DNA from: Clostridia bacterium
Lineage (GTDB): Bacteria > Bacillota_A > Clostridia > Christensenellales > Aristaeellaceae
Direction of reading: 5' to 3'
Assembly (NCBI GenBank): GCA_017464225.1
Contig: JAFUDW010000159.1
Span: 1-18,757 of the forward strand
DNA: 18,757 bases
Part shown: positions 15,877 to 18,757 of the stretch, piece after piece
How the letters are laid out: each line of letters opens with the position of its first letter
Position numbering within the stretch: the stretch's first letter is position 1
The notes under the pieces: generated by a model
What the model was told of the DNA's origin: nothing
What the model saw: the letters and a program-made list of their open reading frames with translations, nothing else
Database searches by the model: none
Position numbers and translations under genes: made by a program

Positions 15877-16350
15877 TCAATTGCCCAAATCGTCCACATA
15901 AAGCTCGCGCACGGCGTTGGGATCCTCCACGGGCGCAGCGGGCTGGGGATGATCGCGCTTTTCCAGGAACTTGGGCGCCACCTGCGGGAACATGGCGATG
16001 GACAGCACATCCTCCTCGCTCTTGACGATGGCCTTGTTCTTTTCGCGGTATTCGGGCATCTCGGGCTTGATCAGGTCTGCGGGACGGCAGGTGATAACCT
16101 CGGCGTCGCCGATGCACTTTTTGCGCACATCCTCATCCACCGCGCCGGGCAGACGGCCATACTCGCCGCGCAGCAAGCCCTTGGACTCCTTGGAGACCAT
16201 CTTATAGCGCTCGCCGCTGAGCACGTTCAGCACGGCCTGAGAACCCACGATCTGGCTGGTGGGGGTCACCGGGGGCGGATAGCCAAAATCCTTGCGAACA
16301 CGGGGCACCTCGGCCAGCACGTCGTAATACTTGTCCTCGGCATTGGCCTG
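15877..16350 (-). CDS. OadA-like decarboxylase alpha subunit, C-terminal part downstream of an in-frame TAG
   Basis: The frame of the upstream carboxyltransferase part continues after the TAG at 16353-16351 without any shift, for 157 codons to a TGA at 15877. The protein (QANAEDKYYDVLAEVPRVRK, then FGYPPPVTPTSQIVGSQAVL) is the conserved PYC_OADA carboxylase domain that normally continues the same polypeptide. The only nearby alternative start is a GTG at 16320 with no well-placed ribosome binding site, so independent translation is doubtful. The C-terminus has a short Pro/Ala stretch (QPAAPVEDPNAV) but no biotinyl domain. That domain is encoded separately upstream of the beta subunit. Whether a full-length 469-residue product is made depends on how the TAG is read. 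Confidence 0.85.
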   Translation of the reverse strand, partial: QANAEDKYYDVLAEVPRVRKDFGYPPPVTPTSQIVGSQAVLNVLSGERYKMVSKESKGLLRGEYGRLPGAVDEDVRKKCIGDAEVITCRPADLIKPEMPEYREKNKAIVKSEEDVLSIAMFPQVAPKFLEKRDHPQPAAPVEDPNAVRELYVDDLGN

Positions 16351-17286
16351 CTAGAGCTGGCTGATCAGATTGCTCAGCATGCCGCCGGGCACCTGGTACA
16401 CCAGCGTTTTGGCGTCGGTGTTCAGCACCTTGGGATCCAGACTGCCCTGGGCCTTGAGCTTGTCGGCCACCTTGCGGAAATGCTCGGAAGCCTTGAGCAG
16501 CTTGTTCATATCCAGACCGGTATCAAACTCGGTGCCCTGGAAGGTGGCCACCATGGATTCGGTAGCGGGCTGGCTGGTGCCGCCGGCCAGAGGCGACAAA
16601 GCGGTATCGATGATATCCACGCCGGCCTGGGCGGCCATCAGGTACACCATATCGCCGGTGCCGGTGGTATTGTGGGTATGCAGGTGGATGGGCACCTTGA
16701 TGTTGGCTTTGAGCTGCTTCACCAGGGAGTAGGCGTCATAGGGCAGCAGCAGGTTGGCCATATCCTTGATGCAGATGGAATCAGCGCCCATCTGCTCGAT
16801 TTCCTTGGCCAGCTTGACAAAGTATTCCTCGTTGTGCACAGGGCTGATGGTATAGCTGATGCAGCCTTCCACCCAGCCTCCGGCTTTCTTCACGGCCTTC
16901 ATGGCGCGCTCGATGTTGCGGGTATCGTTCAGGGCGTCGAAAATACGCACCACATCAATGCCGTTTTCCACCGATTTCTGGCAGAACGCGTCCACCACGT
17001 CGTCGGCGTAATGCTTGTAACCCAGCAGGTTCTGGCCGCGCAGGAGCATCTGCAGCTTGGTGTTGGGCATATGCTTGCGCAGCTGGCGCAGCCGCTCCCA
17101 GGGATCCTCGTCCAGGAAGCGCATGCAGCTGTCAAAGGTAGCGCCGCCCCAGCACTCCAGGGACCAGTAGCCAATGCTGTCCAGGATCTCGCAGGCGGGC
17201 AGCATATCTTCCAAGCGCATGCGGGTGGCCGCCTGAGATTGATGGGCGTCGCGCAGAATGGTATCGGTAATATTGATTTTAGGCAT
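16351..17286 (-). CDS. OadA-like oxaloacetate decarboxylase/pyruvate carboxylase alpha subunit, carboxyltransferase part (ends at in-frame TAG)
   Basis: A 311-residue frame that begins with the HMGL-like carboxyltransferase domain of the OadA/PycB family. The active-site stretch ILRDAHQSQAATRM is near residues 10-23, GGATFDSCMRFL at 48-58, the carbamylated-lysine region CIKDMAN near 172-178 (Lys174), and metal-ligand histidines in HLHTHNTTG (His203/His205). The enzyme removes the carboxyl group of oxaloacetate (or a similar acid) onto biotin. Decarboxylation of carboxybiotin by the beta subunit then exports Na+. The start at 17286 has GGAGG upstream, 12 bases after the beta-subunit stop. The frame is closed by TAG right after PGGMLSNLISQL, where family members usually have Lys. 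A single A-to-T change of AAG would explain it. Confidence 0.92.
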   Translation of the reverse strand: MPKINITDTILRDAHQSQAATRMRLEDMLPACEILDSIGYWSLECWGGATFDSCMRFLDEDPWERLRQLRKHMPNTKLQMLLRGQNLLGYKHYADDVVDAFCQKSVENGIDVVRIFDALNDTRNIERAMKAVKKAGGWVEGCISYTISPVHNEEYFVKLAKEIEQMGADSICIKDMANLLLPYDAYSLVKQLKANIKVPIHLHTHNTTGTGDMVYLMAAQAGVDIIDTALSPLAGGTSQPATESMVATFQGTEFDTGLDMNKLLKASEHFRKVADKLKAQGSLDPKVLNTDAKTLVYQVPGGMLSNLISQL

Positions 17287-17298
17287 ACATTTCCTCCA

Positions 17299-18507
17299 TT
17301 AGGCCGCGCCAAACAGCGCCAGCAGGACGCCGGCAGCGATGGCGGAGCCGATGACGCCGGCCACGTTGGGGCCCATGGCGTGCATGAGCAGGAAGTTGGC
17401 GGGATTCGCCTTTTGGCCTTCCTTCTGGCTGACGCGGGCGGCCATGGGCACGGCGGAAACGCCGGCCGAGCCGATCAGCGGATTGATCTTTTCCTTGAGG
17501 AACAAATTCATGAACTTGGCCAGCAGCACGCCGCCCGCAGAGCCGCAGCCAAAGGCAAAGATACCCATGGCCATGATCTTGATGGTCTGCCAGGTCAGGA
17601 AGGTGTTGGCGGTGGCGGTGGCACCCACGCAGGTGCCCAGGAAGATGGTGACGATGTTCATCAGTTCGTTCTGGGCGGTCTTGTCCAGACGGTCGGTGAC
17701 GCCGCACTCATGCATCAGGTTGCCCAGCATCAGGCAGCCCACCAGCGGGGCGGCCGAAGGCACCAGCAGGGCCACAAAGATGGTGACCACAAAGGGGAAG
17801 ATGATCTTTTCGGTTTTGGATACCTTGCGCAGGGGGCGCATGACGATCTTGCGCTCCTCCTCAGTGGTCAGCGCGCGCATGATGGGCGGCTGGATCACGG
17901 GCACCAGAGCCATATAGGAATAAGCGGCCACGGCGATGGCGCCCAGCAGATGGGGAGCCAGCCGGATGGCGGTGTAGATGGCAGTGGGGCCGTCCGCGCC
18001 GCCGATGATGCCGATGGCGCCCGATTCAGCGGGGGTGAAGCCCAGCACGCGGCTCAGGATAAATACGATGAAGATGCCCAGCTGCGCGGCGGCGCCCAGC
18101 AGCAGCGTCTTGGGATTGGCCAGCAGGGGACCAAAGTCGGTGCCCGCGCCCACGCCCAGGAAGATCAGGCAGGGATAAATGCCCAGTTTGACGCCCAGAT
18201 ACAGATAATCCAGCAGACCCGCCGAAACGGTGGTCATAACGCCGTTGATCTCAATGGGTTCGCTCCCGGCCAGCGCCGCCCAGTGCACATGACCGCCGGC
18301 AAACAGCTCCTCATGGAACAGGTTTGCGCCGGGCAGGTTGGTGAGCAGCATGCCGAAGGAGATGGGCAAAAGCAGCAGAGGTTCAAACTTTTTGACGATG
18401 GCCAAATACGCCAATACCAGCGCAATGACGATCATCACCAGCGCTTTCCAGTTGTCTCCGATCATGGAGAAACCGGTCTGCTGGAGAAAATTCATAATCG
18501 TTTCCAT
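17299..18507 (-). CDS. Sodium ion-translocating decarboxylase subunit beta (OadB/GcdB family)
   Basis: A 402-residue membrane protein with about nine or more hydrophobic segments. The family motif [16 protein letters not shown] lies at about 163-178, and its Asp172 corresponds to the aspartate essential for Na+ transport in Klebsiella OadB. The C-terminal motifs [18 protein letters not shown] and [14 protein letters not shown] are also typical. It decarboxylates carboxybiotin and pumps Na+ outward. The same subunit type serves oxaloacetate, methylmalonyl-CoA and glutaconyl-CoA decarboxylases. The OadA-like alpha subunit downstream favours oxaloacetate. The start at 18507 has GGAGG seven bases upstream. 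It lies 15 bases after the biotin carrier stop. The sequence is intact. Confidence 0.95.
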
Positions 18508-18522
18508 GCTGTACCCTCCGCC

Positions 18523-18757
18523 TTACGCGATGGTCACAAGCAAATCGCCGGACTGTACAGACTGGCCCTTGGTCACATTGACAGCGCCCACGGTGCCGTC
18601 GACAGGAGCCATGATTTCGTTCTCCATCTTCATGGCTTCCAGCATCACCAGGATTTCGCCCTTCTTCACGGCCTGACCAGGCTTAACGTTCACCGACAGG
18701 ATGGTGCCGGGCATGGGGCGTTGACGGCCTGGCCGCCCGCCGGAGCGGCGGCCTTCG
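18523..18757 (-). CDS. Biotin carrier subunit of the decarboxylase, partial, apparent frameshift
   Basis: The last 63 residues, from the ATG codon at 18714, form a complete biotinyl/lipoyl domain with MPGTILSVNV at the start and the biotinylation motif EAMKMEN (Lys29 of this stretch). This domain carries the carboxyl group from the alpha to the beta subunit. Reading upstream in the same frame gives an unlikely Arg/Gly-rich stretch. In the neighbouring frame the same bases give KAAAPAGGQAVNAP, the expected Ala/Pro linker. The two frames would join if the run of four C at 18718-18715 were five, so a one-base deletion or sequencing slip is likely. The gene runs off the right edge, so its true start and any OadG-like gene are not visible. 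Confidence 0.85.
   Translation of the reverse strand, partial: EGRRSGGRPGRQRPMPGTILSVNVKPGQAVKKGEILVMLEAMKMENEIMAPVDGTVGAVNVTKGQSVQSGDLLVTIA

Follow-up and report, generated by a model that had tools for sequence, protein, structure and literature searches.

Does an in-frame TAG within a conserved bacterial gene end the protein, or is it bypassed, decoded as an amino acid or simply absent from the cell? This question is raised by the window analysed here, a stretch of 18,757 bases from an uncultured Clostridia strain that apparently represents a whole contig, its own oadB being listed on a contig of exactly this length. The affected gene, oadA, encodes the alpha subunit of a putative oxaloacetate-decarboxylase-like enzyme. 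Its whole frame extends on the minus strand from 17286 to 15877 and comprises 311 codons, the TAG (codon 312, 16351..16353), 157 additional codons and a TGA. The 5′ part (16354..17286, minus strand) encodes an HMGL-like catalytic barrel that matched PF00682 at 8.7e-19 and profile positions 1-311 of NF008985 at 1.1e-159. The 3′ part (15877..16350, minus strand; 157 codons plus TGA) encodes the PYC_OADA domain, and neither piece alone reached the curated cut-off of NF008985. Since the 157-residue part alone matched PYC_OADA (PF02436) at 1.5e-42, the continuation is not a product of chance. The frame is unshifted across the TAG, confirming a preliminary description of this DNA, in which an OadA-like frame was cut by TAG and resumed unshifted for 157 codons.

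In order to place the site within its family, we assembled OadA homologues from two protein searches, one of which used the 311-residue part as query. Each search scored about 8000 candidates, and the best 120 from each together comprised 171 distinct proteins. Lysine occupied the site in 170 of these 171 listed homologues, as the preliminary description had expected, while the remaining one (P0150) is frameshifted earlier and is not aligned there. No protein of 305-320 residues appeared among the 171, which include the best 120 for the 311-residue query, and none of them stopped at the site. Three of the listed homologues, the metagenome proteins P0121, P0122 and P0150, are frameshifted themselves and lose the frame at residues 328, 325 and 261, respectively. 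The exact 42-base pattern spanning the TAG was absent from viral contigs. The alignment also revealed a second departure that the preliminary description had missed. Codon 339 (16270..16272, minus strand) reads proline in the window only, whereas the homologues carry leucine (168) or serine (1). This codon is located 27 codons 3′ of the TAG, which places K312* and L339P 81 bases apart, less than one read length. The metagenome protein P0001 equals the window's OadA except for K312* and L339P, and neither change was present in P0001 or P0002, both metagenome proteins of 469 residues.

Three near relatives (G014, G016 and G017), which judging from identity would belong to the window's genus, showed 89% nucleotide identity to the window over the operon and lower values outside it (73-86% in longer matches). 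In all three, oadA is intact and has AAG at the window's TAG site, in agreement with the single AAG to TAG substitution proposed initially. Between the window and G014, oadA presented 119 synonymous and 20 nonsynonymous codon changes, the TAG counted among the latter, indicating that constraint on the gene lasted until very recently.

The operon carries a further lesion that had also been overlooked. The beta subunit gene, oadB (17299..18507, minus strand), is intact, and every residue of it was found in at least one of 119 listed homologues. Of the biotin-carrier gene (18508..18757, minus strand), only the 3′ end is visible because the gene is cut by the contig end; it has lost one base at about 18718, and its first 14 visible codons lie in a different frame. 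This loss (18718-18721) was seen against G014, G016 and G017, 40 bases from the contig end, and each of eight further loci compared showed a one-base gap in the window at the same site. The gene's own stop is a TAA at 18523. The TAG and the frameshift are both absent from the near relatives compared, and all lesions found fall within 2.9 of the 18.7 kb, in one operon.

The other genes of the window are all open frames without TAG and showed neither a stop nor a frameshift. Specifically, aspS (cut by the contig start) and the YitT, SH3, epimerase, mscL, HAD-MazG, DUF2804, NADK and TlpA genes aligned to relatives without frame break, and the FNR gene aligned unbroken at 80-90% identity (best six rows). 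In the loci compared, MATE had distant homologues only (35% identity at best) and LysR and PNPOx had no match; these three and FNR are open frames with Pfam matches. Compared with 30 homologues each, gltA showed no departure at 163 conserved columns and hisS none at 113. As a separate observation, hisS (719-1978) shared 91-94% identity with G013, G016 and G012 and 72-73% with G014 and G017, unlike the first 311 OadA residues of G014 and G017, which were 98-99% identical to those of the window. A replacement of the hisS gene is possible from these identities.

We then asked how TAG is used in relatives, which stand in for the window's strain in all recoding tests. For gene calling we trained a codon model on the genes of the window itself, and the model placed these on the right strand and in the right frame. 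Stop counts based on longest open reading frames, and two codon models trained on relatives, were dropped because they picked antisense frames in the window. TAG ended 6 out of 281 called genes in G014 (387 kb), 5 out of 274 in G016 (392 kb) and 2 out of 564 in G001 (764 kb). For G001, an early count of 0 out of 295 had risen to 4 out of 581 with more sequence before the corrected model gave the present figure. The G001 stretches (L117-L136 and L158-L177) hardly ever use TAG as a stop, although RF1 is kept, while the rate is about 2% in G014 and G016. In 31 more distant loci with a GC content above 0.53, an early, uncorrected gene model gave 24 out of 338. The preliminary description had correctly counted the 17 other stops of the window (8 TAA, 9 TGA and no TAG) and had regarded the lack of TAG as a reason to keep amber decoding open, while noting that a GC-rich genome can avoid TAG by chance. 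As TAG ends about 2% of genes in G014 and G016, this lack is expected and carries no weight; the probability of 17 genes without TAG is 0.69 at the G014 rate and 0.73 at the G016 rate.

To examine whether these TAG codons are true gene ends, a family scan covered 9 of the 12 TAG-ended proteins from an earlier gene list for G014 and G016. For six of the nine (Pol IV, YqfD, a YaeI-like phosphodiesterase, Fic, a response regulator and an AraC-type regulator), the match ran near the profile end, with 2 to 11 residues remaining, while the family match gave no verdict on the other three. The Fic gene is missing from the corrected gene list behind the counts given above. Because these matches close near the TAG, we conclude that TAG terminates in the near relatives, at about 2% of gene ends, and it would do so in the window's strain too. 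A strict flank test, which demanded 60 strongly coding codons on both sides, found no in-frame TAG in the stretches of G001, G014 and G016 and one in the window. In the stretches of the three genomes, 26, 20 and 10 TAA and 2, 5 and 4 TGA codons passed, and these were taken for close gene junctions. A laxer version (40 codons and a lower threshold) yielded one TAG in G001, none in G014 and two in G016, one of which, in L220, terminates a called gene.

The machinery of amber decoding was searched for as well. RF1 scored over its family cut-off in 10 of the 12 relatives, including G014, G016 and G017, the two others being G011 (1.6 Mb) and G015 (1.4 Mb). PylS did not exceed its cut-off in any of the 12 relatives or in any of the 10 genomes of an earlier search (G001 was common to both). 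Weaker PylS matches occurred in 8 of the 12 and 7 of the 10 genomes, and since 13 of 14 controls matched as well, one of them over the cut-off, these were taken for other class II synthetases. None of the tRNAs found, 36 in G014 and 41 in G001, carried a CUA anticodon; both sets are incomplete, with those for Ala, Ile and Asn (G014) or Trp, Ile and Asn (G001) missing. In G016 and G017, 37 and 39 tRNAs were found (counts only), and ARAGORN detected no tRNA within the window. The preliminary description had stated that normal TAG stop use without an amber-decoding tRNA would leave a plain nonsense mutation, and this is largely the situation in the near relatives, with the difference that TAG ends their genes rarely.

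Most likely, then, oadA is broken by a TAG that acts as an ordinary stop. We give slightly better than even chances to the fuller explanation, according to which this TAG is a plain nonsense lesion and the strain's operon has died recently. Termination at the TAG would leave a 311-residue catalytic barrel devoid of the C-terminal PYC_OADA domain, and this shortened OadA is predicted to be probably inactive. Next to it in the operon, the biotin-carrier gene is likewise out of frame, which is what suggests a recent death of the operon and not of oadA alone. A stop inside a conserved frame that is absent from relatives, one mark of a nonsense pseudogene, is what was found here. The break must be very young, because the protein is otherwise identical to P0001 and the gene shows constraint. 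An error would look equally young.

Accordingly, the strongest alternative is a consensus or assembly error, in which the gene of the cell is intact and the TAG, the L339P change and the carrier frameshift derive from low-quality or mixed reads. We consider this a serious possibility that falls somewhat short of an even chance. The lesions are private to the window, P0001 and P0002 lacking either oadA change; the two oadA changes are close enough to share a read; and the frameshift lies near the end of what is apparently the whole contig. These three features favour an error. In contrast, the confinement of all lesions found to a single operon favours a real loss, with lesions present in the DNA of the cell, and the remaining genes show neither stops nor frameshifts, with no odd residue in gltA, hisS or oadB at the columns tested. 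The frame breaks in P0121, P0122 and P0150 indicate that broken copies occur in such data, and because they come from the same protein collection, neither origin would be unusual. Among the four explanations that the preliminary description had offered, nonsense mutation and sequence error thus stand, while amber decoding has become very unlikely.

We regard as improbable that the strain makes use of both parts of the gene, either by reading through the TAG, which would give the 311-residue protein and a longer product, or by re-initiating downstream to build a two-piece enzyme. The unshifted frame and the otherwise conserved halves are compatible with this proposal. Conserved in-frame stops are described for bacterial genes in the available part of a survey (PMC7918605), and a GTG at oadA codon 323 is preceded by a GAGGA stretch that could serve re-initiation. 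However, this stretch sits within coding sequence, none of the 171 homologues checked stops at the site, so that readthrough has no conserved basis, and the biotin-carrier partner is broken too.

Very unlikely, and the least probable of these readings, is that the strain decodes TAG as an amino acid, be it pyrrolysine or lysine through a mutated tRNA-Lys: the lysine of the relatives, the rarity of TAG at their gene ends (2 out of 564 to 6 out of 281), its absence from the window's 17 other gene ends and the incomplete tRNA sets, from which a tRNA gene may be missing, would all suit it, but the near relatives end genes with TAG, keep RF1 and show neither PylS over the cut-off nor a CUA tRNA among those found, and the other frames of the window are open without using TAG. 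A bolder version, in which a suppressor, for instance a tRNA-Lys whose anticodon has mutated, decodes a nearly disused TAG, full OadA is made and the clade (with 0.4-2% of called genes ending in TAG) stands at an early step of reassignment, seems to us just as hard to credit. If decoding were real, the strain would offer a natural example of an amber reassignment still under way.

The finding has little significance alone. It illustrates that one in-frame TAG and a short TAG-free window are weak evidence for recoding where TAG is a rare stop in the clade; the low use of TAG itself, as in G001, is of mild interest. In the sections available of PMC8629427, the bacterial reassignments known before that study are described as changes of UGA, some inferred meanings of yeast stop codons are attributed to pseudogenes, and 290 bacterial stop codons for which an amino acid was inferred are counted as candidates. 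The available part of PMC7918605 describes in-frame stops as widespread among bacterial genes. As far as these parts of the two sources go, both fit an ordinary reading of the window's TAG.

The locus resembles three known systems to different degrees. Like the pyrrolysine decoders and stop reassignments covered by the excerpted PMC8629427, it presents an in-frame stop in a conserved gene, but its near relatives differ from those decoders in having RF1 and TAG-ended genes, with no PylS over the cut-off and no CUA tRNA found. Similarly, the bacterial nonsense pseudogenes and in-frame stop polymorphisms described in the portion available of PMC7918605 combine a stop with constraint on the rest of the gene; the case reported here differs from them in that it occurs in one contig only and is accompanied by a second lesion in the operon. 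Finally, the window's frame shares both domains with the oxaloacetate decarboxylase alpha and pyruvate carboxylase subunit B proteins (PDB 2nx9 and 5ks8; NF008985), and oadB and a biotin-carrier gene adjoin it. Lysine occupies the site in both solved relatives with printed alignments, and in contrast to such enzymes, the window's frame is cut by a TAG at precisely this lysine, which starts the PYC_OADA domain.
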